Origin: Bacteroidales bacterium
Lineage (GTDB): Bacteria; Bacteroidota; Bacteroidia; Bacteroidales; GCA-2748055
NCBI GenBank assembly: GCA_029931975.1
Contig: JAOZQY010000033.1
Span: 1-40,728 of the forward strand
Direction: 5' to 3'
Length of the DNA: 40,728 nt
In this document: positions 2,155 to 40,591 of the stretch, piece after piece
How positions within the stretch are numbered: the first letter of the stretch is position 1
How the letters are laid out: every line of letters begins with the position of its first letter
Translations under genes and position numbers: made by a program
Notes under the pieces: model-generated
What the model was told of the DNA's origin: nothing
The model's input: the letters and a program-made list of their open reading frames with translations, nothing else
Database searches by the model: none

Positions 2155-2157
2155 TTC

Positions 2158-3375: not shown

Positions 3376-3440
3376 ATTATTATATTTTAAGTAACATTGT
3401 TCAGTTTCGATAAGGAATCCCAAAGGTAAAAAAGAAATTC

Positions 3441-3448
3441 TACATTTA
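3441..3448 (+). promoter_or_regulatory. Possible -7 box for holB
   Basis: TACATTTA lies 15 bp before the holB ATG and differs from the Bacteroidota -7 consensus TAnnTTTG at one position. No clear TTG -33 element is found at the expected distance. The short interval 3376-3463 must also hold the divergent pgk promoter. Confidence 0.3.
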
Positions 3449-3463
3449 CAGTTTGAAAGGACA

Positions 3464-4609: not shown

Positions 4610-4637
4610 TCCTGTTTTGAATTAAGAACTGAATCTC

Positions 4638-4645
4638 TATTTTTG
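4638..4645 (+). promoter_or_regulatory. -7 box directly before ricT
   Basis: TATTTTTG is an exact match to TAnnTTTG, and its last base is only 4 bp before the ATG at 4650. If used, transcription would begin at or next to the start codon, giving a leaderless message. The alternative is that ricT is read through from holB, whose stop is 40 bp upstream. Confidence 0.4.
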
Positions 4646-4649
4646 CACT

Positions 4650-6265: not shown

Positions 6266-6270
6266 GTGTT

Positions 6271-6978: not shown

Positions 6979-7303
6979 AGATTTCTTCCAAAGAGTATAT
7001 GATGTGGTGAAATCGGTTCCCGGTGGCAGGGTAACCACCTACGGGGCCATTGCACGTTACCTTGGATCGCCGGGAGCAGCCAGAATGGTTGGATGGGCCA
7101 TGAATCAGAGTTCCACTTTTTCGGAATATGTCCCGGCACACAGGGTGGTGAACCGCACAGGTCTTCTGACCGGGAAACACCATTTTGAAGGCAGCTCACT
7201 CATGCAGGAGCTGCTCGAAAACGAAGGTGCCATTATCAGGGAAAACCGTATCATGAACATGGAGGATATGTACTGGGATCCCATGGAAGAACTGGGGCTA
7301 TGA
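6965..7303 (+). CDS. Alkyltransferase-like (ATL) DNA-binding protein, MGMT family
   Basis: 112 residues with the C-terminal domain fold of O6-methylguanine-DNA methyltransferase. The acceptor motif normally PCHRV is PAHRV at residues 57-61, so the reactive Cys is Ala at 58 and the protein cannot take up an alkyl group. The helix-turn-helix region (TTYGAIARYLGSPGAARMVGWAM) is intact. ATL proteins bind alkylated bases and pass them to nucleotide excision repair, a role known for yeast and bacterial members and inferred here. The start at 6965 (MVRNKDFF) lies inside the trmB 3' end. A longer upstream reading frame exists, but it only mirrors trmB. Confidence 0.88.
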   Translation: MVRNKDFFQRVYDVVKSVPGGRVTTYGAIARYLGSPGAARMVGWAMNQSSTFSEYVPAHRVVNRTGLLTGKHHFEGSSLMQELLENEGAIIRENRIMNMEDMYWDPMEELGL

Positions 7304-7327
7304 ATACTTAATCTAAATAAAAAAAGC

Positions 7328-7335
7328 TATCTTTG
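7328..7335 (+). promoter_or_regulatory. -7 box upstream of mrp/apbC
   Basis: TATCTTTG is an exact TAnnTTTG match 23 bp before the ATG at 7359, in the short gap after the ATL gene. No strong -33 TTG was seen at about 20 bp upstream. Confidence 0.5.
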
Positions 7336-7358
7336 GGCAATTAAATTTTGAGTGAATC

Positions 7359-8459: not shown

Positions 8460-8478
8460 TTAATCAAAACCCTGAGAT

Positions 8479-8715
8479 ATGGAATCGATTAAAGAGCGTG
8501 TTGAAAAAGCACTGGAAAAAATACGACCCTACCTGGTTGCAGATGGGGGTGATATCGCCATGGTTGATATTACAGATGATATGGTGGTCAAGGTAGAACT
8601 GAAAGGAGCATGTAACGGTTGTCCCTTCAGCGTGCAGACCCTGAAAGCAGGTGTGGAGACTGCTGTGAAACAAGAGGTTCCTGAGATTAAGGAAGTTGTG
8701 GATGTGAACAGTTAG
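8479..8715 (+). CDS. NifU C-terminal-domain Fe-S scaffold protein
   Basis: 78 residues, a free-standing NifU C-terminal domain (PF01106), as in Nfu proteins. The cluster-binding CxxC is at C45 and C48 (GACNGCPFS). The preceding RPYLVADGGDIAMVDI is the classic N-terminal part of the domain. It probably holds a [4Fe-4S] cluster between two subunits and passes it on, possibly with the Mrp protein encoded 19 bp upstream. The length is normal for a single-domain member. Confidence 0.92.
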   Translation: MESIKERVEKALEKIRPYLVADGGDIAMVDITDDMVVKVELKGACNGCPFSVQTLKAGVETAVKQEVPEIKEVVDVNS

Positions 8716-8806
8716 GTGGTTTTTTTATACCTGATAAAATAACTTATATCAAAACCAGTTAATTAGTTGTAAGAACCTGGCAAAAAATTGTCATAACTGG
8801 ATTTAT

Positions 8807-11491
8807 TTGCATTCTCGAAAAACCATATACGGGGTGATAAGTACCCTTGCTTTACTTGGCGGACTCATCTCATGTTCCGTGGAGAAGAATTCATCAATGT
8901 CCCGGAACTACCACAATCTCATCTCCCATTACAACATCTATTTTAATGGACATGAGAGTTATAAAAGGGGAGTTGAAAAAGCAAGTGCAGCAGCCAAGAA
9001 CGACTATAATCAGATTCTTCCCTTGTTTTTATATGAAGATGAGGCGGTGAATTCTGCTGTATCGGGAGATATGAAGCAGGCCATTGATAAGGCCACTAAA
9101 GTGATCACCTTCCACTCCATCACTGCCAAGCCAACAGTAAAAGAGGGAAATCAGAGTCCCAAAGACAAGGCGTTTTTTGAAAAGAACGAGTACAACAAAT
9201 GGGTGGATGATTCATATATGATGATGGGGAAAGCCTATATGTACCAGGGCGAGTTTTTCCTTGCAGGTGAAACATTTAAGCATGTAATCGTCACTTTTCC
9301 CAAAGAGGATATTCATTATCTGGCCATGATCTGGCTGGCCCGCTCTTATATCATGATTGATGAAATGAGAGAAGCTGAACGTATCCTGATGACGCTTTCG
9401 GACGAGGATGCTTTGCCGGAAGACTATCTCCTGGCCTATTGCACCACACTGTCACAGCTTAACCTTAAAAATAAGGAGTACCCGGAATCGGCCGAGCAAC
9501 TTGAGCTGGCCATGGAACAAAAAGGTATTTCGAAAAATGATAAAATAAGGTATACCTATATTCTGGCTCAATTATATGAAGAATCCAGCCAGAATAATCT
9601 TGCATTGAAGAAATACAAGCGCGTAACAAGATACAATCCTCCCTATGAGATGGCCTTCAACGCAAGGGTGAGTATGGCCGAAGTATTTGAATCTAGTGAT
9701 GTTAGCAGCAATGATCTGAAGAAACTACTCAGGAAAATGTTGAAAGACAGCAAGAACCTGGAGTATAAAGATCAGATATACTTTGCCCTGGGTAATATTG
9801 CCATGGAAGAAGGAGAACGTGAGCTGGCCATGGAATATTTCCAGTTGTCGGTCTCAACCAGCGTGCAAAATCAGTATCAGAAAGGTTATTCATCACTCAC
9901 TCTGGCAGAGCTCTATTACGAGGACCCTGATTATATATTATCTGCGGCCTATTACGATTCTGCTGTAAGTTTCCTGAACAGGGATTATCCTGGTTATGCA
10001 GGACTTGCAACACTTTCGGCCAGCCTGGGCGACCTGGTTTACAATGTAAGCACCTATGAACTGGAAGATAGTGTGCAGATACTGGCAGCCCTGCCGGAAG
10101 AGCAGCGCCTGGCTATTATCGACGGGATTATTGAGGAGGTGCGGAAAGAGGAGGAAGAGGCCCGTCTTGCTGAACTTCAGGCCATGGAGGATATGGCATT
10201 TAACCAGTCCATGTTATATGGAGGCAATCAGAATTCTCAGGGATCAGGGAACCAGCAAGGTGGCCAGTGGTATTTCTATAATCTGAATGCTAAAAGCTTT
10301 GGTCAGCCCGAGTTCAGGATGAAATGGGGTGAACGAAGGCTGGAGGACAACTGGAGGCGAAAAAGTAAAAGAACCATTTCTGATTTGACCAAGAGTCAGG
10401 GACTGGAAGGTGATAGCCTGAGTGTAGAGGGTGGCACTCCGATTCTGGATAATAAATCACGAGAGTTCTACCTGGTCACCATCCCCTTGACCGACTCTGC
10501 CATGGAGATATCTGACAGAAAGCTGGAAGAGGCGCTCTTTAACATGGGAGTGATCTATAAGGATCAACTTCTCGATTATGAAGAGTCCCTTAAAACACTC
10601 AAAGAGCTGGTGGAGCGTTATCCCGAATCCACACATGCACCTTCGGCATACTACTACCTGTACGAATTAAATAATAATCTTCAGAAACCCGATCAGGCCA
10701 GGTACTATGCAGATCAGCTGACGGCCCTCTATCCTGAGTCGCATTTTGCCATGCTGCTGAATAATCCCAACTATCTGAAGGAGCTGGAAGAAGAGGAAAT
10801 GAAAGTGGTGCGCTATTATGAGGAGGTTTTCGGGTTCTATCAACAGAAGAATTATGCCGCTGTGATAAACGGAGCTGATCGTGCTTTTACCCTGTTTCCA
10901 GAGGATCAGCTGATTCCCAAGTTTAAATATATACGTGCCATGGCACTGGGAGCGCTCGAGGGGAAAGAAGCAATGAAGGTGGCACTTGACTCATTGCTAT
11001 CACAGCATCCTTTGGCCGAGGAGAGCCTGCAGGCTCAGGAGATTGTTGATTATATGTACGTGGAGTTTCCTGAAATTCTGGAGGCCGATCAGGCCGCTGA
11101 TGCAGAAGAGATTTATGCTAAAATAGATTCCTCCCAGGAACACTTTTTCCTTCTGGCCATCCATACCACCCAGAATGCCAACCAGGTCAGTTTTGATCTC
11201 TTAAACCATAACCTGGACCATTACAATCAGTACGATTTGTCCATTGACCAGCTTGCCATGCTTGATTCATACAACATTCTGGTTGTGAAGCTGTTTAATA
11301 ATTTTGAATCAGCGTTCAGATATCTTGAGGATATAGAGGAGAACCGCGAGTCGATCCTTGCCGGTCTTGTACCGTCTCAATACAGAATGATGATTATATC
11401 ACCGGATAATTATGGAATTCTTACGGAAAGAAAGGAACTTACACCGTACTACCTGTTTTACCGGAAACACTATTTTAACCAAGAAGAATGA
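8807..11491 (+). CDS. porW: SprE/PorW-type TPR lipoprotein of gliding/type IX secretion
   Basis: 894 residues. The start at 8807 is a TTG, chosen because it gives a proper lipoprotein signal (hydrophobic core, LISC, lipidated Cys 23). No ATG in frame precedes it. After the signal comes the conserved YHNLISHYNIYFNG segment typical of SprE/PorW, then long helical TPR-like repeats through both halves, separated by a Q/G/N-rich linker near residues 470-495 (NQNSQGSGNQQGG). In Porphyromonas and Flavobacterium the family is required for type IX secretion and gliding. The porX start codon overlaps the stop by 4 bases (ATGA), so the outer-membrane component and the response regulator are made together. 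Confidence 0.87.
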   Translation: MHSRKTIYGVISTLALLGGLISCSVEKNSSMSRNYHNLISHYNIYFNGHESYKRGVEKASAAAKNDYNQILPLFLYEDEAVNSAVSGDMKQAIDKATKVITFHSITAKPTVKEGNQSPKDKAFFEKNEYNKWVDDSYMMMGKAYMYQGEFFLAGETFKHVIVTFPKEDIHYLAMIWLARSYIMIDEMREAERILMTLSDEDALPEDYLLAYCTTLSQLNLKNKEYPESAEQLELAMEQKGISKNDKIRYTYILAQLYEESSQNNLALKKYKRVTRYNPPYEMAFNARVSMAEVFESSDVSSNDLKKLLRKMLKDSKNLEYKDQIYFALGNIAMEEGERELAMEYFQLSVSTSVQNQYQKGYSSLTLAELYYEDPDYILSAAYYDSAVSFLNRDYPGYAGLATLSASLGDLVYNVSTYELEDSVQILAALPEEQRLAIIDGIIEEVRKEEEEARLAELQAMEDMAFNQSMLYGGNQNSQGSGNQQGGQWYFYNLNAKSFGQPEFRMKWGERRLEDNWRRKSKRTISDLTKSQGLEGDSLSVEGGTPILDNKSREFYLVTIPLTDSAMEISDRKLEEALFNMGVIYKDQLLDYEESLKTLKELVERYPESTHAPSAYYYLYELNNNLQKPDQARYYADQLTALYPESHFAMLLNNPNYLKELEEEEMKVVRYYEEVFGFYQQKNYAAVINGADRAFTLFPEDQLIPKFKYIRAMALGALEGKEAMKVALDSLLSQHPLAEESLQAQEIVDYMYVEFPEILEADQAADAEEIYAKIDSSQEHFFLLAIHTTQNANQVSFDLLNHNLDHYNQYDLSIDQLAMLDSYNILVVKLFNNFESAFRYLEDIEENRESILAGLVPSQYRMMIISPDNYGILTERKELTPYYLFYRKHYFNQEE

Positions 11492-13044
11492 GCAGGAAGA
11501 TACATATTCTTTGGACAGATGATGAGATCGACCTGCTTAAACCTTATATTCTTTTCCTTGAGGAGAAAGGTTACCAGGTAAGCACAGCGGCCAATGGAAC
11601 CGATGCACTGAGCCTGGCTCAGGAAATCGATTTTGACCTGATCTTCCTGGATGAAAATATGCCCGGATTATCCGGACTGGAGACCCTGGAAAAGTTAAAA
11701 GCAGATCACCCTTCCACGCCTGTGGTGATGATTACCAAGAGCGAGGAGGAAGATATCATGGATGAGGCCCTTGGGGGTAAAATTTCCGATTATCTGATTA
11801 AACCGGTGAATCCCAAACAGATCCTGCTAACCATTAAGAAGAACATTGATACCAAAAGGCTGGTTACTGAGAAAACAACTTCCGGTTACCAATCGCAGTT
11901 TGGACAGTTAGGGATACAGATTAATTCGGCTTCTACTTTTAAGGAATGGACAGAGATTTATTCCCGGCTTGTTTTCTGGGAACGGGAATTTGACAGCAGT
12001 GGTGCAGAGGGGATGGACGAGGTGCTGAGTATGCAGAAGACCGAAGCCAACAAAGAGTTTGCCAGGTATATTCGCAATCACTACGAAAATTGGTTCTCCG
12101 GAGAGGACGGTGATAGACCACTCCTTTCATCGGGAATCTTTAAAAACAAGATTTTCCCTCTGCTTGATAAGAGCAAGGTCATGGTGGTGATTATTGACAA
12201 CCTTCGCTACGATCAGTGGAAAATTATTGAACAGGAAATCAATACGCTTTACAGAACAGATGAGGAGACTATTTTTTCCAGTATTCTGCCCACCTCCACC
12301 CAGTATGCAAGAAACGCTATGTTTGCAGGAATAATGCCTGCTGAAATTGTCAAGCATTATCCACAGCTCTGGACCGATGAAAATGAAGAGGGAGGAAAAA
12401 ATGCCTTTGAGGAGGAGCTTTGCAGGATACAGATGCAGCGACTCGGAGTGCGGGCTTCATTTAATTATGAAAAGATCTCCAATCAGCGGGCAGGGAAAAA
12501 ACTGGTAGAAAACTATCAGGACCTACTCAACTACGATCTTAATGTGGTAGTATATAATTTCGTGGACATGCTCTCCCATTCACGGACCGAGATGGAAATG
12601 ATCAGGGAACTGGCCTATGATGAAGCATCTTATCGATCACTGGTCAACAGCTGGTTTCAACACTCCTATCTCTATGATTTACTGAAGTTGCTTAATCAGC
12701 ATGATATTAAGCTGGTTATTACCACGGACCATGGTGCGGTCCGGGTTTCTAATCCCGTAAAGGTGATTGGCGACAGAAAAACATCGGTCAACCTTCGATA
12801 TAAGCTGGGCAGGAATTTGAACTATAAAAAGAAAGAGGTTTTTGATGTGCTTCATCCGGAGCATGTTTTTTTGCCGAAAACCAATCTTACTTCCAGTTAT
12901 ATCTTTGCCATGAACAATGATTACCTGGTTTACCCTAATAACTATAATCATTTTGTAAATCTTTACAGGAACACCTTCCAGCATGGAGGAATCTCTCTGG
13001 AAGAGATGTTGATTCCCATCTCCATTTTATCTCCTATCAGGTAA
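11488..13044 (+). CDS. porX: PorX: response regulator fused to PglZ phosphatase-like domain
   Basis: 518 residues. Receiver domain residues 1-120: acidic pair D11/D12, phospho-acceptor D55 in LIFLDENMPG, T83 and K105. A helical middle part follows. The alkaline-phosphatase-superfamily PglZ domain runs from about 230: VVIIDNLRYDQW, the PTSTQYARNAMFAG motif with its catalytic threonine, and TTDHGAVRV near 410. In Porphyromonas, PorX with the histidine kinase PorY and sigma factor SigP controls type IX secretion genes; family studies report nucleotide-phosphodiesterase activity for the PglZ domain. All phospho-relay residues are present. No porY is adjacent. It overlaps porW by 4 bases, and tsaE starts directly after it, so the unit continues. 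Confidence 0.93.
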   Translation: MSRKIHILWTDDEIDLLKPYILFLEEKGYQVSTAANGTDALSLAQEIDFDLIFLDENMPGLSGLETLEKLKADHPSTPVVMITKSEEEDIMDEALGGKISDYLIKPVNPKQILLTIKKNIDTKRLVTEKTTSGYQSQFGQLGIQINSASTFKEWTEIYSRLVFWEREFDSSGAEGMDEVLSMQKTEANKEFARYIRNHYENWFSGEDGDRPLLSSGIFKNKIFPLLDKSKVMVVIIDNLRYDQWKIIEQEINTLYRTDEETIFSSILPTSTQYARNAMFAGIMPAEIVKHYPQLWTDENEEGGKNAFEEELCRIQMQRLGVRASFNYEKISNQRAGKKLVENYQDLLNYDLNVVVYNFVDMLSHSRTEMEMIRELAYDEASYRSLVNSWFQHSYLYDLLKLLNQHDIKLVITTDHGAVRVSNPVKVIGDRKTSVNLRYKLGRNLNYKKKEVFDVLHPEHVFLPKTNLTSSYIFAMNNDYLVYPNNYNHFVNLYRNTFQHGGISLEEMLIPISILSPIR

Positions 13045-13045
13045 T

Positions 13046-13459
13046 ATGAAAACCATCACAATTTCATCACTTCAGGAGCTTGATAGTGCTGCCAGGAGTT
13101 TTCTTGAGGCGGCGGCTGAAGTCGATGTTATTGCATTTTCCGGTGAGATGGGAGTCGGGAAAACCACCTTTATACAGGCACTGTGCCGGAATCTGGGTAT
13201 TATGGTGGAAGTGAGCAGTCCCACTTTTTCGCTGGTCAATGAATATTTTACCCCGGAAGGGGATTCCATATTCCATTTTGATCTTTACCGGATTGAGGCA
13301 AACGAGGAATTGTTTGATATGGGCTACGAAGAGTATTTTTATTCGGGGTCTCTTTGTCTGATCGAGTGGCCCGAAAAGGCCGGCTCTTTGATTCCTGAAG
13401 ATGCACTTTGGGTGAGCATTGAAATCGGGGAAAAGGAAAGCAGAATTTTACAGTTCTGA
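13046..13459 (+). CDS. tsaE: tRNA threonylcarbamoyladenosine synthesis ATPase TsaE
   Basis: 137 residues. Walker A GEMGVGKTT is at residues 33-41. VSSPTFSLVNEY follows near residues 55-66, the usual TsaE signature, then IFHFDLYR. The ATPase works with TsaB and TsaD to add the threonylcarbamoyl group to A37 of ANN-reading tRNAs. The start codon lies one base after the porX stop. tcdA, which cyclises the t6A product, is found 17 kb away in the same window. Confidence 0.94.
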   Translation: MKTITISSLQELDSAARSFLEAAAEVDVIAFSGEMGVGKTTFIQALCRNLGIMVEVSSPTFSLVNEYFTPEGDSIFHFDLYRIEANEELFDMGYEEYFYSGSLCLIEWPEKAGSLIPEDALWVSIEIGEKESRILQF

Positions 13460-13479
13460 TTTTCGGTTCATACAAAAAA

Positions 13480-13510
13480 TTGACATTGCTGACGAATTAT
13501 CTTATTTTAG
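13480..13510 (+). promoter_or_regulatory. Promoter for ald
   Basis: TTG at 13480-13482 (within TTGACATTG) and TATTTTAG at 13503-13510 are separated by 20 bases, the spacing expected between the Bacteroidota -33 and -7 elements. The -7 box differs from TAnnTTTG at one position. The ATG follows at 13535. Confidence 0.5.
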
Positions 13511-13534
13511 GCTTCCCTAATAACTGTTGGAGTA

Positions 13535-14758
13535 ATGGAAAACAAAGGATCATCTGCATTTAATATCCATAGAGAGGGTTTAATGCCCCAGGAGGAGACA
13601 CTGGAGATAGGGAGCAAAAAGAATCATTTAAAAATCGGAATTCCCTCGGAGAATCACCAGATCGAGAACCGGGTGCCCCTGACCCCTGAAGCAGTTGAAA
13701 TCATTACCGGGAATGGACATGAAGTGATGCTTGAGGCGGGCGCCGGAAAAGGAGCTAATTACCTGGACACGGATTACTCAGAACGGGGAGGGTTAATATG
13801 TGAGAACAGGCAGGATGTATTTCGGGATTGTGATATAATCCTGAAGATCAGTCCCCCGACCGAAGAAGAAATAGGATGGATGAAGGAACGCCAGGTTCTG
13901 CTTTCCTCTTTCCAGGTTTTTACACATTGCAGGGAAAATTACATCAGGAGCCTGATGCGAAAGAAGGTCACAGCCATTGCTTTTGAGAAGATACAGGACG
14001 AACACAACTGTTACCCTGCCGTTAGGAGCATGAGTGCCATTGCGGGTACCACCAGTATGCTTATTGCCGCTGAATATTTAAGCAACCAGCGTGGCGGCAA
14101 AGGGGTGATGCTGGGCGGGGTAACAGGGATTACGCCCACCGAAGTGGTAATTCTAGGCGCTGGTACCGTTGCCGAGTATGCAGTGAGGGCAGCAAAAGGA
14201 GTGGGTTCGGAAGTGAAGGTTTTTGATCATTCCCTGCATCGCTTGCGGCGCCTGCAATCGGAGGTTGGCCAGTTGATTCCCACTTCCATTTTTCACCCCA
14301 AAGTGATTTTAAAGGCCCTGCGATCGGCCGATGTACTTATAGGTGCAATCAGAAAAGGGGACAGAGATCCGGATTATTTTATCACAGAAGAGATGGTGAA
14401 GGAGATGAAAAAGGGTTCAGTGATTATCGACATCAGTATCGATCGCGGGGGTTGTATAGAGACCTCTGAACTACGGACTCAGATCGACCCGGTTTTTGTA
14501 AAACACGGGGTCATACACTATTGCGTTCCCAATATTCCTTCCAGAGTGGCACGTACTGCTTCCATTGCCGTCAGTAATGTTTTTGCTCCCCTGATCCTTG
14601 GGCTGGGTGGACTGGGTACCACCGGGAAACATTTGAAAAAAAATGTGGGTCTCAGGCGTGGTGTATATATTTATAATGGTACACTGACAAATGAGACCAT
14701 TAGTCGCCAGCTTGGCATTCCCTCCAAGGATATTGATCTTTTGATGGCTGCTTTTTAG
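13535..14758 (+). CDS. ald: Alanine dehydrogenase family protein
   Basis: 407 residues. The NAD-linked enzyme interconverts L-alanine and pyruvate plus ammonia. The core begins at about residue 32 (KIGIPSENHQIENRVPLTP) with the substrate-binding Arg of the RV-LTP motif. The nucleotide-binding Rossmann motif is VVILGAGTVAEYA at about 206-218. IDISIDRGGCIETS and VPNIPSRVARTAS are also typical of the family. The first ~31 residues are an extra N-terminal part that I recall in Bacteroidota members. The related transhydrogenase alpha subunit is ruled out by the absence of a membrane part and by the VPNIPSRVARTAS motif. Confidence 0.88.
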   Translation: MENKGSSAFNIHREGLMPQEETLEIGSKKNHLKIGIPSENHQIENRVPLTPEAVEIITGNGHEVMLEAGAGKGANYLDTDYSERGGLICENRQDVFRDCDIILKISPPTEEEIGWMKERQVLLSSFQVFTHCRENYIRSLMRKKVTAIAFEKIQDEHNCYPAVRSMSAIAGTTSMLIAAEYLSNQRGGKGVMLGGVTGITPTEVVILGAGTVAEYAVRAAKGVGSEVKVFDHSLHRLRRLQSEVGQLIPTSIFHPKVILKALRSADVLIGAIRKGDRDPDYFITEEMVKEMKKGSVIIDISIDRGGCIETSELRTQIDPVFVKHGVIHYCVPNIPSRVARTASIAVSNVFAPLILGLGGLGTTGKHLKKNVGLRRGVYIYNGTLTNETISRQLGIPSKDIDLLMAAF

Positions 14759-14779
14759 AACAGTATAAAGAAGCGAAAG

Positions 14780-15331
14780 ATGAACCATAGATATGTGTTG
14801 ATTGTGCTTATGATCCTGTTTTCAGCAGGATGTAAAATGTTAACCGGACCTGACAAAACAGGCGAATTCCTTTTGAGCTCGGAAAAGTCCGGCACGGAAG
14901 TTTACTACCTGTTTGGATATTCCTACGAGGACAGTGATTTTTACAGGTTTCCTTATGAGAAGGATCCTGTTCCCGATATCATTAATGAGGGTTTCAGGGT
15001 GCTGGTTGGAGATGGAACCCTTGAACTGCCTGGTTTTCAAACGCCCGGGCGGACAAATGGATTTGCTAAGCTGGGAGAATTTGAGAGCCTGAGTGAGGCC
15101 CGCACTTACTATAAGGGATATAAGAAGGTTGAAGCAAACCTTCAGTTTGTAGTGGAGAGCGATACGGTTGAGGCTTTCCAGGTATGGGTACAGAAAACAT
15201 CCACAGGTAATTATGCCAAGCTGCTGGTCAAGGAGGTCGCATCCCTTGAAAGTGAAGAAGGCAATAAATATAGTGAAGCACTCCTGGAATATACCTACCA
15301 GCCCAATGGATCCACAGAATTTCCTGATTGA
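14780..15331 (+). CDS. Lipoprotein of unknown function
   Basis: 183 residues. Residues 1-17 are a signal peptide with lipobox FSAGC, lipidated Cys 18. The mature chain is acidic, rich in Tyr and Phe, and shows no motif I recognise. Parts such as GYSYEDSDFYRFPYEKDPVPDI and EAFQVWVQKTSTG suggest a beta-rich fold. It lies 21 bp after ald and 27 bp before the symporter gene on the same strand, so it may share their transcript, but no shared function is evident. Confidence 0.65.
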   Translation: MNHRYVLIVLMILFSAGCKMLTGPDKTGEFLLSSEKSGTEVYYLFGYSYEDSDFYRFPYEKDPVPDIINEGFRVLVGDGTLELPGFQTPGRTNGFAKLGEFESLSEARTYYKGYKKVEANLQFVVESDTVEAFQVWVQKTSTGNYAKLLVKEVASLESEEGNKYSEALLEYTYQPNGSTEFPD

Positions 15332-15358
15332 TCTCCCATGTTTTTTCTATATTAGTGC

Positions 15359-16804
15359 ATGAATTTTGCGCTTATTGGTTTCATCTTTTACCTGGTAGTG
15401 ATCCTGGTGGTTGGATTCATTACCTACAACATCAACAAGTCACATAAAGACTTTTTTATTGCCGGCCGGAAATTGAATCCCTGGGTGGTAGCATTTTCCG
15501 AACGTGCATCCGGTGAAAGTGCCTGGTTGCTACTTGGTCTGCCCGGTGCAGCTTTTGCATCCGGACTGCTGGAGTTTTGGACCGCACTGGGATGTGTATC
15601 GGGAATTATTTTTTACTGGTTCTTTATAGCCAGGGCCTTGCGTGAAGAGACGGAACGGCTCGGCGCCATTACCCTGCCTACTTTCCTGGCTGCCAGGTTT
15701 GATAAGGGTCAGTCTGCCATTCGCGTGCTGGCCACTTTCATCATTATCTTTTTCTTTATTTTTTATCTCTCGGCACAGTTTAACGGGGCGGGAAAAATTA
15801 TGAATGTCACCTTCGGACTCAAACAGTCCACAGGGATGATTCTCGGAGCAGCGGTAATCATCTTCTATACCATGATGGGCGGGTTCTTTGCCGTGGCATG
15901 GACCGATATGGTACAGGGAATTATTATGATCGGCACCCTGGTGGTACTGCCGCTGGTGGGACTGGCCGAGTTGAAGCAGATTCATGAAGGCTCCCTTCTC
16001 ATTGCCGAACTTGTTACCAGTGAGGGACATCCCCTGCTTTCGTGGACAGGTGGTAAAACCGGATGGGCGGCGGCCGCTTTGATTGTTAGTGGATTGAGCT
16101 GGGCGCTGGGCTATATGGGTCAGCCTCACCTGCTTACCCGCTTTATGTCCATCCGGAGTGCGGGAGAGATTAAGATATCCCGGCGTATTGCCATTGCCTG
16201 GGTGATCCCTGCTTTTTCCGGGGCTCTTTTACTGGGTATTATTGGGGCCGGACTTTACGAGCAGGGCATGTTTGATGATATTGAGAAGTTGATGCCCCAC
16301 CTGGCCAATGAACTGCTTCCAGCCTGGCTGGCAGGCATCTTTGTGAGTGGGGCCATTGCAGCCATGATGTCCACAGCCGACAGCCAGCTACTGGTGATCA
16401 GCTCCTCCATTATCGAAGATTTATTTCACCGGACACTGGGCTGGGATGTGAGCGATAATGCTTTATTGAGGGGCAGCCGCTGGATTACCATTGTGGTTGG
16501 CCTCATCGGTTTTGTGATTGCCCTTACCTCCGATAAACTGATATTCTCCATGGTTTCCTATGCCTGGGCTGGATTGGGTTCTTCTTTCGGTCCCCTGGTC
16601 CTGTTGATGCTAAGTTGGAAAAAAGTGACCTGGCAGGGTACCATTGCCGGATTGGTGACCGGCTTTGTGACCACGGTTGTCTGGTCCGAAATCACCCTGC
16701 TCGATTCGGTGATCAGTGTCCGCTTTGTCTCCTGGGTCATCGCTTTCCTTGCTGTTTGGCTGGTGAGCCTTTATACCAGGAAAAAATCACAGGCAGTTCT
16801 ATGA
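15359..16804 (+). CDS. Sodium/solute symporter, PutP-like
   Basis: 481 residues, a sodium:solute symporter (SSS, PF00474) of the inner membrane with about 13 hydrophobic segments. Early motifs: DFFIAGRKLNPWVVAFSERASGESAWLLLGLPG, matching the PutP proline transporters closely (the S-ASG-SAWL pattern in TM2). The sodium-site helix near the middle reads AIAAMMSTADSQLLVISS. Proline is the likeliest substrate by similarity to PutP. A confident assignment would need the binding-site residues to be compared. The stop overlaps the waaA start by 4 bases (ATGA). Confidence 0.85.
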   Translation: MNFALIGFIFYLVVILVVGFITYNINKSHKDFFIAGRKLNPWVVAFSERASGESAWLLLGLPGAAFASGLLEFWTALGCVSGIIFYWFFIARALREETERLGAITLPTFLAARFDKGQSAIRVLATFIIIFFFIFYLSAQFNGAGKIMNVTFGLKQSTGMILGAAVIIFYTMMGGFFAVAWTDMVQGIIMIGTLVVLPLVGLAELKQIHEGSLLIAELVTSEGHPLLSWTGGKTGWAAAALIVSGLSWALGYMGQPHLLTRFMSIRSAGEIKISRRIAIAWVIPAFSGALLLGIIGAGLYEQGMFDDIEKLMPHLANELLPAWLAGIFVSGAIAAMMSTADSQLLVISSSIIEDLFHRTLGWDVSDNALLRGSRWITIVVGLIGFVIALTSDKLIFSMVSYAWAGLGSSFGPLVLLMLSWKKVTWQGTIAGLVTGFVTTVVWSEITLLDSVISVRFVSWVIAFLAVWLVSLYTRKKSQAVL

Positions 16805-18024
16805 GGTTTTTATATAACATAGGAATCCGGATCTACTGGTTGCTGGCCCTGATCATTTCCCCCTGGAACCGGAAAGCAAAGCTATGGCTGGAGGGCAGAA
16901 GGTTTTGGTATGATAAGCTGAAGGGCGTTTTTAATACTGATGAAAAGCTCATCTGGTTCCATTGTGCTTCTTTGGGAGAGTTTGAACAGGGACGGCCGGT
17001 GATTGAAGCGATCCGGGAGCGCCGGCCGGACCGCAAGATCCTCCTCACCTTTTTTTCACCTTCGGGCTATGAAAAACGAAAGGATTATAACGGTGCCGAT
17101 TATGTGATGTACCTGCCTCTTGATACCAGGAAAAATGCTAAAAAGATGCTGGAGCTACTCTCCCCTGAACTGGTTTTCTTTATTAAGTATGAGTTCTGGT
17201 ATCACTTCCTGAAGCAGCTAAAAAACGCAGCGATTCCTGTTTACCTGGCTTCAGGGAACTTTCGTTCCGGCCAGCTTTTCTTTCGTTGGTATGGAGGCTG
17301 GTACAGGAAGTTTCTGGATTTTTTCACCCATATTTTCGTGCAGACTGAAGATTCAAAAGTGCTCCTGAGCGGTATTGGTTATCATCATGTTAGCGTGGCA
17401 GGGGATACCCGTTTTGACCGGGTACATGAACTTCCGCTAAGTAAATTCAGTCATCCTGCTCTTGAAGATTTCGCAAAGGGTAAGCAGCTTATTGTTGCAG
17501 GCAGTACATGGGAGAAGGATGAACAGCTTCTTGCAGGTGCTTTTGAGGAGCTGTCCCGGGAAGTGAAGTGGATCATTGCACCCCATGAACTATCAGAGGG
17601 CCATATCCGAAGTTTGCAGAAGCGTTTCCCCGGCAGTGTTCTATTTACCGAACTGGGTGAAAAAGTTGCGGAAGGTACCCGGGTGATCCTGGTGGATACC
17701 ATAGGCATGCTCTCTTACCTCTACAGGTATGGAAGTATGGCCTACATAGGAGGTGGTTTTGGCAAGGGCATACACAATATCCTGGAGGCTGCCACCTACG
17801 GCCTTCCTGTGATCTTCGGGCCTGAATACGGGAAGTTTTCCGAAGCGCTTGAACTCACTTCACTGGGAGCCGCCTTTCCCATTGGGAGTGAAACAGAGTT
17901 GATATCCACCGTTCGTCAACAATTTGAGGATCCGGGCCTGTTGAAAACTACATCAGCGATCGCGGCAAACTTTGTGTCTACGCGGGTTGGAGCCACTTTG
18001 GCCATTCTCAAAAAATGTGAATAA
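16801..18024 (+). CDS. waaA: 3-deoxy-D-manno-octulosonic acid (Kdo) transferase
   Basis: 407 residues. It attaches Kdo from CMP-Kdo to lipid A precursor, at the inner membrane. The N-terminal ~20 residues form a membrane anchor. The Rossmann half begins near 45 (IWFHCASLGEFEQGRPVIEAIRE), the standard WaaA opening. LVAGSTWEKDEQLL is close to the mid-domain motif, and YIGGGFGKGIHNILEAATYGLPVIFGP is the CMP-binding C-terminal signature. The start at 16801 is chosen because it overlaps the symporter stop by 4 bases and gives the normal length. The frame is also open upstream, inside the symporter gene. Confidence 0.95.
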   Translation: MRFLYNIGIRIYWLLALIISPWNRKAKLWLEGRRFWYDKLKGVFNTDEKLIWFHCASLGEFEQGRPVIEAIRERRPDRKILLTFFSPSGYEKRKDYNGADYVMYLPLDTRKNAKKMLELLSPELVFFIKYEFWYHFLKQLKNAAIPVYLASGNFRSGQLFFRWYGGWYRKFLDFFTHIFVQTEDSKVLLSGIGYHHVSVAGDTRFDRVHELPLSKFSHPALEDFAKGKQLIVAGSTWEKDEQLLAGAFEELSREVKWIIAPHELSEGHIRSLQKRFPGSVLFTELGEKVAEGTRVILVDTIGMLSYLYRYGSMAYIGGGFGKGIHNILEAATYGLPVIFGPEYGKFSEALELTSLGAAFPIGSETELISTVRQQFEDPGLLKTTSAIAANFVSTRVGATLAILKKCE

Positions 18025-18157
18025 AAACAGGAGCGAATCAGTGTTAAATAGTTCTTCTGTGCAGAGATTTCTTTCTATTTTCGAGGTATCAAGTCTGGAT
18101 CTAAATATCACAACCATTTCTTAACAGTTTATTAATGTGAAGCTATTGATAATCACA

Positions 18158-18165
18158 TAATTTCG
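18158..18165 (+). promoter_or_regulatory. Possible -7 box for the TonB-dependent receptor
   Basis: TAATTTCG, one mismatch from TAnnTTTG, lies 25 bp before the receptor ATG. The 166-bp gap 18025-18190 is AT-rich and has no gene. No obvious regulatory repeat was seen. Confidence 0.3.
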
Positions 18166-18190
18166 TATCCAATATTAAAAACCAAAATCT

Positions 18191-21100
18191 ATGAAAAAAA
18201 TGAGAAGACTGGTGCTTTCCCTGGTAGTTGTGGCAATGAGTGTGGCCGCGATGGGACAGGGTACCACTACTTCCGAAATGAACGGAACCATTAAGGATGA
18301 CACCAATGCACCCCTTGAGGGAGCGACTGTGGTGGCTGTCCACAACCCTACCGGGTCCCAGTATGGGGCTATTACCAATGAACAGGGTTATTTCACCATC
18401 CCCCTGATGGATGTTGGAGGACCTTATACAGTAACTATAACCTATGTGGGTTATGCCGAATACAAAAAATCGGATATTTACCTTCAACTGGGTCAGGCGT
18501 ATTCTGTAAATACACAATTAAGCACCAGCGCTATGGACATTGCTGAGGTTGCCATTATTGGATCCCGTACCAGGAAGTATGACCTGTTTGATGGTAACCG
18601 CACCGGTGCCGAAACTGTACTTGACGAGGAAGACCTGAACAGGATGCCAAGCCTCTCGGGCGACATCAATGACTTTACCAGGTATACTCCCCAGGCAAGA
18701 GTTGTTGGTGACGGAATCTCCTTTGCAGGGATGAACAATCGTTACAATTCTGTGATGGTTGACGGTACGGTCAACAATGATGTATTCGGACTTGCAGCCA
18801 ATGGAATGAACGGCGGCCAGACTGGGGTGTCGGCTTTCAGTTATGAAACAATTGAGCAGTTCCAGATCACCCTGGCTCCCTATGACGTAAGAAATGGTGG
18901 ATTTGCCGGTGCTGGTATCAACGCAGTTACCAAGAGTGGTACCAACCAGGTTGCCGGTTCGGTATATTTCAAATACCGGAACCAGGGCATGGCTGGTATG
19001 ACCCCCACCGATGATGAGGACTATGAAAGGGAGAAACTTCCTGAGTTTTCTGCAAAAACTTATGGATTTAATCTTGGAGGTCCTATCATTAAAAACAAAC
19101 TGTTTTTCTTCGCCAACGTGGAGCTTCAGAACGATGAGACCCCCAGGCCTTATATCATGGAGGACTACATTGGTAATACGGATGCTGCGGGTTTACAGGC
19201 ATTGAGGGATTATTCAATTAACAACTACAATTATGACCCCGGAACTTTTGGGGACGTTACAGATGCCCTGAGGGGTCAGAAATTCTTTATTAAACTGGAC
19301 TGGAATATTAGCGACAAACACAAGCTGATGGTCAGGAACCAGTATACCTTTGGTGAGAGTACTTCTCCCGGTCATTCCGATTACAACGACATCTATTTTT
19401 CAAACGCTGGTGTTTTGTTCCCATCCACGACCAACACCACTGCCATTGAACTGAAAAGCAGGTTTTCACCCACCATGTCAAACAACCTGAAGGTGAGCTA
19501 TGCATATGTGCATGACAACAGGGAAGTGATGGGCGATAAGTTTCCCGGTGTGACCATCGATGACGGTAGCGGTACCATTCACCTGGGTGGCGAGGTTTAT
19601 TCCACTGGGAATGAGCTGACCCAGAAAATTCTGACCATTACCGATAACTTTACCATGAACATGGGTAAACATACTCTTACTGTTGGAACCCACAACGAAT
19701 TCTATGACATCTACAACCTCTTCATGAGAAGAGCCTTTGGTTACTATGACTTTGATGATGTTGCCAGTTTCGAGGCCGGGACTCCAGGGGAATACAGGAT
19801 AGGTTACTCACTGGTGGATGACATCAGGGGTGACGGATCAGCCGCCGCTGCCGATTTCAATGCCATGCAGCTCGGTTTTTATGTACAGGACGAGATCAGG
19901 GTTTCCGACCAGTTTAAGGTGACAGCCGGATTACGTTTGGATATCCCTATCTATTCGGACCAGCCATTGGAAATCGATGGATTTAATGAAACCACCATAC
20001 CAATTCTGGAGACCGAGCATGATCTCAAGGGTGCCCAATCAGGACAGATGCCATTTACACAATTGCTGCTTTCCCCGAGGATTGGTTTTAACTGGGATGT
20101 AAGCGGTGAAAAAACAACCCAGCTTAGAGGTGGCATAGGGATCTTCACTTCAAGGGTACCTTTTGTATGGCCTGCAGGTTCCTATACCAACAACGGACGT
20201 ATGGTTGGAGATTACAGGGACAGAACAGACTCGCCTGATAATCAGCCTTTTGAGCCAGACTGGCAAAATCAGTATGTTCCGCCTAAAGACGGATCAATTC
20301 CTTCCGGAAGCCAGGTTGACCTCTATACTAAGGATTTCAAGCTTCCCCAGATGTTGAAAATTGACCTGTCGGTCGACCAGAAGCTTCCAGGCGGAGTTGT
20401 TGCCACCCTGGAGGGAATCGTTACTAAGACACTGAACAATGTGCTCTGGCAGGATGTGAATATGAAACCTTCCTTTGGAAATGCCACAGGCACACCCGAT
20501 ACCCGTCCGCTGTACAGAACTTACCACAACGGACTTGATGGCGATTACGGTCAGATCATGTTGGGTGGAAATACCAACAAAGGTTATGCATACAACGTGA
20601 CCCTGCAGTTGAGGAAGAATTTTGCTATGGGTTTGAATGCCAATATTGCATACACCTATGGTACTTCCTACTCGATCTTCGACGGAACCAGTTCACAGAA
20701 CTCTTCTCAATGGAACTACCTTGTATCAAGTCCGATACCCAAGAACAGAGCAGAACTTGCTCGCTCTGGATTTGATCCCGGAAGCAGGATTGTGGGTAAT
20801 CTTAGCTATGCCAAGGAGTATATTGGCCACCTGAAAACCATGGTTTCACTTGCCTACATCGGACAGTCGGGTAGGGTTGTATCTTACATCTATAATGATT
20901 ACTACGGAAACTTCACCGGGGAAGCCTACAAAACTCCTCAGTTGATCTTTGTTCCTGCTACTTCATCTGATATTATTTTAGTAGATGGAGATGGTGTTGA
21001 AGATCCTGCCCAATGGGCTGAGCTGGATGCTTTTATTTCCGGAAATGAGTATCTCGACTCAAGAAGAGGCGATTATGCTGAAAGAAACGGTTCAAGGCTG

Positions 21101-32215: not shown

Positions 32216-32716
32216 CTACAGTATCCATTTTTTCTCATGGGTGCTAAAGTCCAGCACCCTGATCTGCAAATGTTCGCCCAGCCTGAGGGCTTCCTCGGTC
32301 ATTTTTTCCAGGGATCCCCTGCAAACACTCACATAGCGTTGACTGCCCTCCACCACCAGGTTCACCTTGAAGGCCCTGGCCCCCTTTTTGTCCTGCGGAG
32401 CCACCATGGGTGTAGGTCCGCTTCTGTTGCTGCTCACGTTGATCCGCACAAGGGTCACATAGGAAGCCTTTGGTAGCGGCTTCCACGCGCCGATTTTGAA
32501 ACTCAGAAAGCGATCATATCTGATATACTTTTTTTCAAGAGGATCGATTATAACGCCCTGGTAGGAGAAGGCAAACAGTACTCCAAGGACAAAGGTGATA
32601 GCTCCGCCAATATATACTCCGTTAACCAGGAAGGCTATGGTCATCAGGGCCATAAGCGGTGTAATGACCTTGAAGGAATACTTTTCGTAGCTGTATATTA
32701 TTGTAGGGCTTTCCAT
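32216..32716 (-). CDS. Membrane protein of unknown function
   Basis: 166 residues from the ATG at 32716; a TTG at 32725 would add three residues. Two adjacent hydrophobic segments at about 17-33 and 36-53 (TPLMALMTIAFLVNGVYI, then GGAITFVLGVLFAFSYQG) look like a membrane hairpin. The rest is a soluble beta-rich domain that begins VIIDPLEKKYIRYDRFL and resembles the PH-like domains of small bacterial membrane proteins. I recognise no family. It sits head-to-head with the pseudogene cluster, with only about 50 bp between its start and the first pseudogene ATG. Confidence 0.6.
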   Translation of the reverse strand: MESPTIIYSYEKYSFKVITPLMALMTIAFLVNGVYIGGAITFVLGVLFAFSYQGVIIDPLEKKYIRYDRFLSFKIGAWKPLPKASYVTLVRINVSSNRSGPTPMVAPQDKKGARAFKVNLVVEGSQRYVSVCRGSLEKMTEEALRLGEHLQIRVLDFSTHEKKWIL

Positions 32717-32764
32717 GGAGATCAAGTTAGTAAACTTTGACTTATATTTAGGTCAGCAATAGAC

Positions 32765-34448
32765 ATGCAGCTCTGAAACATCATTTCACTTTTTTCGTCC
32801 TCCTGTTTCTTTTCGTGGGACAGGGATTACCAGTGGTCGGCAGACAATTCCAAACTGCTGCTCTTCACCAATACCCGCAGGGTGTGGAGGTATCATACAC
32901 GGGGCGATTACTGGGTGCTTGATCTTATATCGGGACAGTTGCAGCAGCTGGGTACAGCGCTGAAATCCGCTACCCTGATGTTTGCGAAATTCTCACCCGA
33001 CGGAGACCGGGCGGCTTATGTGAGTGAAAACAATATTTTTGTGGAGGAGCTCAGTAGCAGCACCATCACTCAGCTTACAGAGGATGGCAGTGAGCGCTAT
33101 GTGAACGGAACCTTCGACTGGGTTTATGAGGAAGAGTTCGCTTGCAGGGATGGTTTCCGGTGGAGCAATGACGGGGAAAAGATTATCTACTGGCACTCCG
33201 ATACCGAAGGGACCGGGACTTTTTATCTGATCAATAACCTGGATTCCATCTATTCCATACCCATGCCCTTTCCCTATTCCAAGGTGGGGACCACCAATTC
33301 GGATGTGAAGATTGGTGTGGTTCCGGTCGTGGGTGGAAGCACCTTATGGTTTGATGTCCCGGGCGATCCCAGGAACAACTACCTGGTCAGAATGGAGGTG
33401 GTTCCCGGAGCGGATGAGGTGATTTTCCAGCAGCTGAACAGACTGCAGAACACCAATCGGGTGTGGATCGGCAACCTGGAGACCATGGAGCTGGAGAATA
33501 TACTTACTGAAACAGACGAAGCTTTCCTGGATGTGCATGACGACCTGCTCTGGTTGGAAGGGAACCGGTATTTTACCTGGACCAGCGAGCGGGATGGATG
33601 GAGACACCTGTACAGGGTAAGTCGCGATGGCAAAGAAATCAGCCAGGTGACCCGGGGCGACTTTGATGTGGTGTCGCTGGATTGCATCAATGCCAAAACA
33701 GGATATGTTTACTATATCGCTTCCCCGGACAATCCCACCCAACGCTATTTGTATCGCAGTCGGCTCGACGGAGAGGGAAGTCCCGAACTCATCTCACCCG
33801 ATGAACAAAAAGGACAGCATTCTTATGTGATGTCGGGCGATGCAAAACTTGCTTTGCACACTTTCGAAAATGCTACTACCCCCCCGGTGACTTCCCTGGT
33901 GGAGGTCAAATCACATAAGGTTATCAGGGTGATGGAAGACAACCGGAAAATTAAAGAGATCTATGAAGCACTGGACCTGGCTCCCAAGGAGTTTTTCAGA
34001 GTCGATATCGGGGAGGTGGAGCTGGACGCCTGGATGCTTAAACCAGCAGATTGGGATCCTGGCTTCGGAGGACCAGGCAGCAGCGGCACAAAAGATACTG
34101 GAGGCCTATCCCTTCCTGGACAGGGAGAAGGTGGGAATCTGGGGCTGGAGCGGAGGTGGTTCCATGACTTTGAACTGTATGTTCCGTTTCCCTCATATCT
34201 ACAAGGAGCAGGGTTCGCCCATTAGCCATGCATCCGGACTGGAAGGAAAGCTCTTACTGATTCATGGAACGGCCGATGATAATGTACATTACCAGAGCTT
34301 TGAGATGATGGTGGACGAGCTCATAAAACTGGATAAACTCTTTGATATGTTTTCCTACCCCATGCGTACCCATGCCATCCGTGAACGGGAGAATACCAGT
34401 CTGCACCTGAGACGTACCATGGCCAGGTACTGGAAGGAGAACCTGTAA
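32765..34448 (+). pseudogene. S9-family dipeptidyl-peptidase IV-like gene, decayed
   Basis: Remnant of a secreted prolyl (DPP-IV-type) serine peptidase. The ATG at 32765 reads MQL then a stop. One frame over, KHHFTFFVLLFLFVGQ is the original signal-peptide core, so a 1-base loss lies near 32772. At about 32824 the frame shifts into DYQWSADNSKLLLFTNT, skipping roughly the first 80-90 residues of the beta-propeller. The propeller then reads cleanly (FDWVYEEEF, TSERDGWRHLYRVSRDG) to ADWDP at about 34059. There a deletion and frame change join it to LASEDQAAAAQKILEA. The catalytic Ser motif GWSGGG, the Asp in HGTADDNVH and the His in RTHAI are kept. A further in-frame deletion near 34206 removes about 35-40 residues (FPHIYK then EQGSPIS). 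The frame ends KENL. Confidence 0.85.
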
Positions 34449-34506
34449 AAACAAAAAATGAAATCAGTGAATACGCATATTCCCAGCCCGGGTGGAAGCT
34501 CCCTGT

Positions 34507-34634
34507 CTGGGTAGGAATATCTCTTCGGCCATGAATGCCCTTTCAAGTGCCAACATGGCTATTGCCGGATACGATCACCTTATCCCCCTGGATGAAGTAA
34601 TTGAAACAATGGACAAGGTGGGAAGGAACATGCC
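34507..34634 (+). pseudogene. L-serine dehydratase, C-terminal fragment
   Basis: About 42 residues (GRNISSAMNALSSANMAIAG, then DHLIPLDEVIETMDKVGRNMP) match the C-terminal alpha-domain of iron-sulfur L-serine dehydratase, where S-MNA--AA--AL-G---IP-DEVI--M--VG---P is the recurring pattern. The normal end of the protein (ETGLGGL and beyond) and everything upstream are missing. The next base begins a different gene remnant, so a deletion joined the two. The short stretch 34449-34506 is not assignable. Confidence 0.65.
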
Positions 34635-35028
34635 TGGCCTTACCGAAAGGATGATGTGGCGGCGCTTTTCAGGTTCCACCGGGCCGATATCTTCTGCGTG
34701 CAGGAGGCCCTGCCCGAGCAGATGGATGATCTGGAAGCAGCTTTCCCCTATTTCACCTACGACGGAATCGGTCGGCACAACTGATTCTGGATAAGATTTA
34801 GGAAATTTCCGGAGACAATGGTGCGGTGGTTTTATGTGGGGGTTTTAACCTGCCACCCACCTCAGAACCCATTGAACTGATCAGTACCAGTTTAATTGAT
34901 GCCTTCCGGGTTTCGGAGCAGGCTCCTTATGCTTCTGTGGGCACCTACCATGGATTTAGCTACGATGATCCAGTTAAAGAACGGATCATCTGCCCGTGCT
35001 GGTGACCCTGCAGTTTGTCAACAGATAG
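34635..35028 (+). pseudogene. Endonuclease/exonuclease/phosphatase-family gene, decayed
   Basis: Three pieces of one EEP-fold protein. 34635-34781: WPYRKDDVAALFRFHRADIF, then CVQEALPEQMDDLEAAFPYF, with the family Q-E motif; it runs into a stop at 34782. 34778-34980: QLILDKI, an in-frame TAG at 34799, then EISGDNGAVVLCGGFNLPPTSEPI. Here the GDFN motif is GGFN, and codon 34841 is GGT where GAT would encode the catalytic Asp. 34984-35028: DHLPVLVTLQFVNR and a stop, the SDH-P signature. The central part of the protein is deleted between pieces one and two, and a shorter part between two and three. It cannot be active. Confidence 0.75.
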
Positions 35029-35900: not shown

Positions 35901-36269
35901 TTACAGGTCTTTTTGTTTCCGGCTCATTTTGATTCCCACCGATTTGATGGGTCCGCCCATAGGTGGATTCAGTTTCCGCACCCTGATGGTGGCTTTTTTG
36001 ATGTCATGCATCTCTGTAAAAAGAGCATCCAGAATCCGCTTGCCTATGTTTTCCAGGAGATTGGATTTGGTGCGGCGCATCTCATTTTTAATGATCTGGT
36101 AAGCCTGCTGATAATTCACTGCATCGTCGAGATTATCTGAATCGGCTGCTGCTGAAAGATCCGCTTCCATCTCCAGGTCCACCAAAAACCTGTTTCCCAC
36201 AATCTGCTCTTCCTGGTAATGTCCGTGGAAGGCGTAGAATTCCATCTCTTCAATAATTATTTTTCCCAT
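35901..36269 (-). CDS. folB: Dihydroneopterin aldolase
   Basis: 122 residues, normal size. It cleaves dihydroneopterin to 6-hydroxymethyl-dihydropterin and glycolaldehyde in folate synthesis. Seen: IIIEEMEFYAFHGHYQEEQIVGNRF, with the FHG(Y/C)xxEE active-site and substrate region, NYQQAYQIIKNEM near residues 52-64, ENIGKRI near 73-79, and the conserved Lys in VRKLNPPMGGPIKSVGI. Its 3' end faces the lipoprotein gene with 12 bp between stops. Confidence 0.95.
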   Translation of the reverse strand: MGKIIIEEMEFYAFHGHYQEEQIVGNRFLVDLEMEADLSAAADSDNLDDAVNYQQAYQIIKNEMRRTKSNLLENIGKRILDALFTEMHDIKKATIRVRKLNPPMGGPIKSVGIKMSRKQKDL

Positions 36270-36508
36270 AAGCGAACATTTCAGATTTAGCCGACAGTAA
36301 CAAATTTAGCACATTTTCACTTTTATATATCACCCCCGCAGCTTACATTTGGAAATCAGCAAATTATTAGAAACTGTTTTGTGTTCAAAAGCCTGTTAAA
36401 GAACGCTTTCCGGAATATCACAAACAAGTTTGGCTACATTTTTTGATTATCCTGGGGATGACCCTGGGGATTACAGGTGCCCTGTTCCTGTAAGTCCGGC
36501 AGAATTAC

Positions 36509-36535: not shown

Positions 36536-38224
36536 ATGACAGAGCATAAAGAAGATAGCGCAGAAAAGAAGAGCCTCAATTTTATTGAGGCCATGGTTGA
36601 GGAGGATATCCGCAGTGGAAAGAACCATGGACGGGTACATACACGCTTTCCACCGGAGCCCAATGGCTACCTTCATATAGGTCACGCCAAGGCCATCTGT
36701 CTCGATTTTGGAATCGCAGAACGCTATGGTGGCAAGTGCAACCTGCGTTTCGATGATACCAATCCCACCAAGGAAGATATAGAGTTTGTGGACTCCATCA
36801 AGGAGGATATTCACTGGCTGGGATTTGACTGGGAGGACCGGGAGTATTTCGCGTCAGATTACTTCGGAAAGCTCTACGATTTTGCCACTGAGCTGATTAA
36901 AAAGGGATTGGCCTATGTGGACGATCAGTCGTCCGAGGTAATGGCAGCACAAAAGGGCAGCCCCACAGAACCAGGCACACACAGTCCGTTCAGGGAGCGT
37001 AGCGTGGAGGAGAACCTGGACCTTTTTAAGCGTATGAATGAAGGGGAATTTCCCGAGGGTTCGAGGGTGCTGAGAGCCAAGATCGACATGGCCTCTCCCA
37101 ATATGCACATGCGCGACCCGGTGATCTATCGCATCTTGTTTCATCCCCATCACCGCACCGGCGACCGGTGGAAGGTCTACCCCATGTACGACTTTGCACA
37201 CGGACAATCCGACTTCTTCGAAGGGGTTACCCATTCGCTCTGTACATTGGAATTCGAGGTGCACAGACCCCTCTATGACTGGTTGGTGGAGCACCTGAAA
37301 GAGAATGACTACAGGCCCCGACAAACAGAATTTAACCGTCTGAACCTGAGCTACACCGTACTGAGTAAAAGGGTATTGCTGGCCCTGGTAAATGAAGGTC
37401 ATGTGAATGGCTGGGACGATCCCAGGATGCCAACCCTCACCGGACTGCGTCGCAGGGGCTATACCTCCGAATCGATCCGGAACTTCAACGACAGTATCGG
37501 CTATACCAAGGTGATGGCCAATAATGATGTTGGACTGTTGGAATATGCTGTTCGGGAGGATTTGAATAAAAAGGCTCCCCGCGTGATGGCAGTGCTGAAT
37601 CCCCTGAAACTGATTATTACTAACTATCCGGAGGATAAGACCGAGGAGATGGAAACCATCAACAACCCGGAGGATGAATCCATGGGCAGTCGCACCATTC
37701 CTTTTTCCAGGGAGATCTATATTGAACGAGAGGATTTTATGGAAGATCCGCCAAAGAAATTTTTTCGCCTGGGTCCCGGACGTGAGGTAAGACTGAAGTC
37801 GGCCTACATCATCAAGTGCGAGGACTACAAGAAAGATGAAAACGGGGAGGTCTGCGAGGTGTACTGCACCTACGATGAGGCTACCCGCAGCGGAGGCCCC
37901 GAGGCCGGACGAAAGGTAAAGGGAACCCTGCACTGGGTATCGGCCAAACATGCTGTTGAGGCGGAGGTGCGTTTGTACGACAGGCTCTTCATCGATCCCG
38001 AACCGGCAGGTCACAAGGACAAGAGCCCGGTGGATTTTCTAAACCCCGACTCATTGAAAGTGATCACCGGCTACGTGGAGCCCTCCCTGAAAGATGCCAA
38101 AGCACTGGACCATTTTCAGTTCCAGAGGCTGGGTTATTTTAATGTGGATCCCGATACTACTCCGGGAAAACTGGTGTTTAACAGAACCGTCACATTAAGG
38201 GACAACTGGTCGAAAAGAAAGTAA
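36536..38224 (+). CDS. glnS: Glutaminyl-tRNA synthetase
   Basis: 562 residues, class I synthetase charging tRNA-Gln. HIGH is at residues 47-50 ([21 protein letters not shown]). The KMSKS-type loop is VLSKR near 278-282. A C-terminal anticodon-binding beta-barrel domain runs from about 340 (KVILNP-like [13 protein letters not shown] onwards). The [14 protein letters not shown]-type segment [18 protein letters not shown] is characteristic of GlnRS rather than GluRS. The length is normal. The 3' end abuts the convergent mscS gene, one base apart. Confidence 0.95.
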
Positions 38225-40434: not shown

Positions 40435-40591
40435 AAAGTTAAACAATGGAGCATATAAAACCTATTGAGCGTTCAGCTGGACTTGGACCACACCCTGCTG
40501 GCATTGATTTTAGGAGGGAGCATAACCGTTCACTATTTGGTTTCCTACAATCGTATTGCCTGGCTGCTGAAACAGAAGTGAATTTTTTTAC

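Follow-up and report, generated by a model that had tools for sequence, protein, structure and literature searches.

The stretch of DNA analysed here (the window, 40,728 nucleotides) is contig C215 of G000, the draft genome of an uncultured Bacteroidales bacterium (4.76 Mb, 366 contigs, 96% complete). It carries the remains of a gene block that we compared with 17 other genomes of the genus. All of these genomes are drafts (2.1-6.2 Mb across the genus) and many are incomplete, so some absences may be gaps. The order of the 139-aa membrane-type protein gene mem139(-), PadR(-), the 169-aa gene(-), DPP-IV, L-serine dehydratase (SDH), CPBP protease and EEP is intact or nearly full length in G002, G013 and G012, where a permease lies farther along (cut by the stretch examined in G013 and G012); G008 and G003 show the same gene order up to their contig ends. 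Relatives of G000 carry the intact orthologues at the syntenic place, as expected for bacterial unitary pseudogenes, and these are the intact ancestors that the first-pass annotation had proposed to look for by synteny. The 169-aa gene has matches in eight of nine relatives, and the contig of the ninth, G009, stops short of it. All pieces in the window preserve their order and orientation relative to these genomes.

Between 32.77 and 35.03 kb, pieces of a DPP-IV-type peptidase, SDH and EEP follow one another directly, as that annotation had stated and as Pfam and the syntenic orthologues agree (Table 1). The DPP-IV pieces match DPPIV_N (E 4.9e-80) and Peptidase_S9 (E 3.2e-23), the SDH piece matches SDH_alpha (E 3.0e-12, profile 200-248 of 260), and the EEP pieces are matched by intact EEP proteins from within the genus, of which that of G013 is an Exo_endo_phos protein (Pfam, 1.9e-23). 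The count of three broken genes, all on one strand, has to be revised: six genes are broken and two are gone (PadR and CPBP), and the mem139 stub lies on the minus strand. The borders had been described as intact, which is true of the 169-aa gene, the 35.1-35.9 kb ORF, the 122-aa gene and the tRNA synthetase, all open, and untrue of mem139, the permease and the 123-aa protein, which survive as stubs. The last 113 bases of the contig (40616-40728) share 97% identity with G002, much more than the sequence around them does, and perhaps represent an RNA gene.

Table 1. Features of the block in window coordinates, with the deletion junctions J1-J9 placed between them
Feature	Position	Strand	Observation
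mem139 C-terminal stub, 24 codons	32138..32209	-	tblastn 114-137 of 139, 87%; 1-bp gap
J1			about 847 bp; 817-848 bp in 5/6 relatives (G003 817); 377 bp in G005, itself without a PadR match
169-aa gene	32216..32725	-	open, retained within the decaying block; without Pfam match
Probable DPP-IV signal-peptide end	32765..32821	+	hydrophobic reading frame; weak similarity, tentative; severed by J2
J2			about 257 bp; 256-257 bp in 5/5 relatives; 255 by gaps vs G002
DPP-IV piece A (propeller domain)	32822..34046	+	open; Pfam DPPIV_N; 73.7-83.8% aa identity, 9 relatives
J3			200 bp; equal in 6/7 relatives; 202 in G003
DPP-IV piece B (part of peptidase domain)	34047..34204	+	follows J3
J4			99 bp; equal in 6/7 relatives; 97 in G003
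DPP-IV piece C (C-terminal end and its stop)	34209..34448	+	follows J4; 87-96% aa identity, 9 relatives
Gene spacer and first SDH codons	34449..34486	+	up to J5; 21 bp of the G002 SDH frame left of the break
J5			1193 bp; equal in 4/4 relatives with both sides on one contig; G003 (two contigs) excluded
SDH alpha-domain piece, 46 codons	34486..34626	+	flanked by J5 and J6
J6			870-930 bp; 5 relatives; spans SDH 3' end, whole CPBP gene, EEP 5' end
EEP piece 1	34626..34771	+	follows J6
J7			241 bp; equal in 6/6 relatives
EEP piece 2	34772..34983	+	follows J7; in-frame TAG, DFN to GFN (aligned residues)
J8			85 bp; equal in 6/6 relatives
EEP C-terminal end	34984..35028	+	follows J8
ORF	about 35.1-35.9 kb		open
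122-aa gene	35901-36269		open
N-terminal stub of 734-aa MacB/FtsX-like permease	36381..36490	+	frameshift inside; remainder lost (J9)
J9			about 2115 bp vs G002; leaves the permease stub
Glx-type tRNA synthetase	36536-38224		open
C-terminal stub (36 codons) of 123-aa protein	40471..40578	+	58% over residues 88-123, vs G002 only

Deletion junctions

Alignment to same-genus relatives sized J1-J8 as eight deletions of about 85-1193 bp. Compared with its syntenic orthologues, DPP-IV has lost about 257, 200 and 99 bp; SDH has lost 1193 bp internally in addition to its 3' end, and EEP its 5' end followed by 241 and 85 bp. CPBP has no match within the window, the entire gene being lost, and PadR has none there either, having been deleted with the rest of mem139 at J1. 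The PadR alignments at G008:C58:6243-6635 and G006:C140:131-526 contain one stop each, possibly just because the G002 frame was given a wrong start.

The deletions and frame changes claimed at first pass are borne out by the sizes of J2-J8: among J3, J4, J5, J7 and J8, only J4 (99 bp) is divisible by three, a degree of frame disruption that is typical of pseudogenes. Small indels are very few in the kept pieces: the mem139 stub shows a 1-base gap, and the permease stub has its reading frame shifted. The 1.2-kb piece A of DPP-IV aligns with zero gaps to G008, G005, G013, G009 and G003, and with balanced gaps of 2-6 bases to G012, G002, G017 and G016. Strict consensus homology at the junctions amounts to 0 bp at J1, J2, J3, J4 and J7, 2 bp at J5, 3 bp at J6, 4 bp at J8 and 8 bp at J9, raw short-repeat figures, uncorrected for chance and limited by the 20-27% divergence of the relatives. 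No Ku gene (PF02735) was found in any of the 18 genus genomes, with the control positive in 1/14 (Bacillus subtilis), and Ku-dependent end joining was rejected on this ground.

Age of the decay and its traces in sister species

We fitted a codon model with a separate omega for the G000 branch to the DPP-IV pieces (534 codons, 10 taxa), on a tree in which several nodes are poorly supported (36-52). Omega is 0.098 on the G000 branch against 0.096 in the background, and 2lnL drops by 2.59 at an omega of 0.13 and by 4.14 at 0.14; the same test on five sister branches returned 0.080-0.100. For SDH plus EEP, with the EEP stop codon treated as missing data, omega is 0.135 against a background of 0.094, which is compatible with no change since all values from 0.08 to 0.25 lie within 3.4 2lnL units. 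Five intact nearby genes have an omega of 0.053-0.199 on the G000 branch, the upper value belonging to the 169-aa gene (0.173 elsewhere), and four of them are lower there than in their respective backgrounds (2lnL 6.6 for the OMP gene).

Omega gives no more than a bound on the time spent without selection. With 0.096 as the baseline and about 0.14 as the upper value, the unselected share of the branch would be under about 5%. Because four of the five control genes are lower on the G000 branch, the baseline of G000 may itself be below 0.096 and the age bound perhaps looser; by our own arithmetic, a lower baseline would bring the unselected share to about 7%. On these fits the decay of the block can be taken to be recent, in line with the reading given at first pass. 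The in-frame stop in EEP, together with the change in its DFN motif, which we take to be catalytic, suggests that EEP may have decayed first.

Decay of the same block is seen in sister species. G005 keeps DPP-IV and CPBP while its SDH and EEP are fragmented, with deletions of 1037, 150, 91 and 72 bp relative to its sister G009 and one of 282 bp relative to G013, and its breakpoints differ from those of the window. The two sisters are 94% identical over 1765 bp (DPP-IV end included); the kept pieces of G005 show a single 1-bp gap against G009, adjoining a junction, and at three junctions the aligned flanks overlap by 4-12 bases, mismatches counted in. In G009 itself the block is intact as far as the contigs extend, with EEP visible from residue 166. 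G015 retains only the EEP end and G004 has an internal CPBP deletion, the locus having no DPP-IV or SDH match in either genome, and the CPBP matches of 18 and 21 residues in G016 and G010 are perhaps stubs. No sister genome shows an arrangement identical to that of the window, in a set that includes one genome of this species.

A close DPP-IV is present in just 9/17 other genus genomes and SDH matches in 10/17 (one of them the G005 remnant only), and the genes look dispensable on account of these counts; EEP has matches in 15/17, two of which are remnants only. Within the G000 draft, DPP-IV has only paralogues at 28-30% elsewhere, and searches for a second SDH or EEP copy returned the window fragments only. 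For SDH and EEP, this result led us to reject replacement by another genomic copy.

Broken genes along the genome

The loss had initially been judged local, a view that some clustering favors, whereas 11 further G002 ORFs are partial or broken at syntenic places on four other G000 contigs (1, 4, 5 and 1) and the sister species are damaged too. In four collinear chains comprising 274 G002 ORFs, 58 are absent or broken and 15 broken; the C121/C26 pair (2 and 4 anchors) was left out of this test. At most 5 broken genes occur in any 10 consecutive ORFs, a maximum that falls in the window and that 132 of 20000 shuffles reached; 845/20000 reached 4 broken in 8 ORFs, and 276/20000 reached 7 absent or broken in 8. 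The scan sizes were picked after seeing the data, and the absent-or-broken run includes one probably spurious 167-aa ORF. Nowhere in the four chains are broken genes packed more tightly than in the window, but runs of absent genes are equally dense in C73 and C262, so that the absent-or-broken measure does not set the window apart. Fragment matches exceed chance, and there is modest support for a clustering of broken genes beyond chance.

With C121 included, 16/285 G002 ORFs are partial or broken in G000 against 6/262 G000 ORFs in G002. This asymmetry toward G000 is no more than suggestive; it counts anchors plus non-anchors between anchors under a lenient score that still includes G002-specific gains. 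Outside the window, G000:C73 is rich in deletions at about 88-97 kb, where a 933-aa G002 gene, one of the 11 above, is cut by several deletions (96.6-97.0 kb) into pieces of about 120-130 bp. Inside it, a 316-aa NAD-epimerase gene carried by G002, G008, G005 and G015, and in part by G013, is absent at 27494|27505 with no remnant, and further clean absences are found at 24759|24826 and at 38220|38235 (a 759-aa patatin-Omp85). Such clean absences were kept out of the cluster count because gene-sized presence/absence is common in both directions.

Interpretation and known systems

The intact order in G002, G013 and G012, together with deleted lengths that are nearly equal across relatives at each junction, argues for ongoing gene loss. 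We consider it very probable that the genes of this block were inactivated recently and have been trimmed by repeated separate deletions after loss of selection. Selection on the peptidase and the serine-catabolic genes would have been lost, and DNA would then have been removed sequentially, in separate events that each took out about 85-2100 bp between ends sharing hardly any homology (0-8 bp). The underlying process would likely be RecA- and Ku-independent illegitimate recombination, by strand slippage at short direct repeats or by alternative end joining.

A G000 assembly in 366 contigs could have joined pieces that are not adjacent in the organism, creating deletions that do not exist. We judge this very unlikely: window positions 1163-18261 align continuously to G002 as a single 17-kb piece, the strict shared sequence of at most 8 bp at the nine junctions seems too short for k-mer joins, and EEP carries a stop and a motif change besides its deletions. 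The damaged genes are likewise missing or broken in G005, G004 and G015, and the separate genome G005 displays a similar style of damage at other breakpoints, although an error type common to drafts is conceivable. A single complex rearrangement, for instance a multi-deletion event by template switching, might instead have made all or most of J2-J8, and DPP-IV, which carries several deletions but few signs of point decay, fits such an event. We hold it to be improbable, if less so than an artefact, because EEP was already damaged by point mutations, which suggests different ages, because all pieces retain their order and orientation, and because the few lesions in G015 and G004 and the five in G005 SDH and EEP are what stepwise loss predicts. 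The open frame of 447 aa at 32882-34225, whose omega is near background, could also be imagined as a shortened gene retained for a new use, a propeller without its peptidase domain. Its GTG start is internal, no signal peptide is in frame, its last codons, just under 60, are out of frame after J3, and the period before inactivation accounts for the low omega; we rejected a kept function for this frame, which appears scarcely credible.

Recent inactivation followed by separate deletions is a known form of reductive decay, mildly unusual here for several mid-size deletions ahead of point mutations. In Salmonella, PMC2916853 describes young pseudogenes rapidly removed by deletional processes, as appears to happen in the window; it also gives 346/378 pseudogenes with a single inactivating mutation and only a small fraction that lost more than 20% of their length, whereas in the window three deletions interrupt DPP-IV, and most of SDH and EEP is lost. 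Against this Salmonella record, the number of mid-size deletions relative to small indels in the window is unusual. In Streptococcus agalactiae ST260-261, the same loci are found at differing decay states in two sublineages (PMC3637634), much as one set of loci is found here at several stages across relatives. There, 136/193 indels over 4 nt involve repeats, with mostly RecA-independent recombination proposed, and the junction homology of 0-8 bp and the absence of Ku would fit such deletions, allowing for the divergence of the relatives. Indels of 1 nt are common in that comparison (358, with 621 simple indels), unlike the window remnants, which mid-size deletions dominate (PMC3637634). Variable segments with multiple pseudogenes are also described for Rickettsia (PMC2374718); Rickettsia is intracellular, while the drafts of this genus reach the sizes given above. 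Among the titles listed by the literature searches, none concerned this pattern in Bacteroidales, which does not prove absence.

Could the genus itself have an unusual deletion spectrum, with several Ku-independent deletions of 70-1200 bp in an inactivated gene preceding point mutations and small indels? We think this unlikely, and the number of mid-size deletions relative to small indels merits a genus-wide count. What the window shows is ordinary reductive evolution, at a stage where it can be seen unusually clearly. Related species display different degrees of gene loss at a single locus for which intact ancestors are available, and the locus could serve to quantify deletion size and rate relative to substitutions across the genus. 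Related species lose the same genes, each in its own way, and in the G000 bacterium these genes are apparently no longer needed. Going by their family names, this suggests that the organism makes less use of peptides and draws less on serine as a substrate.
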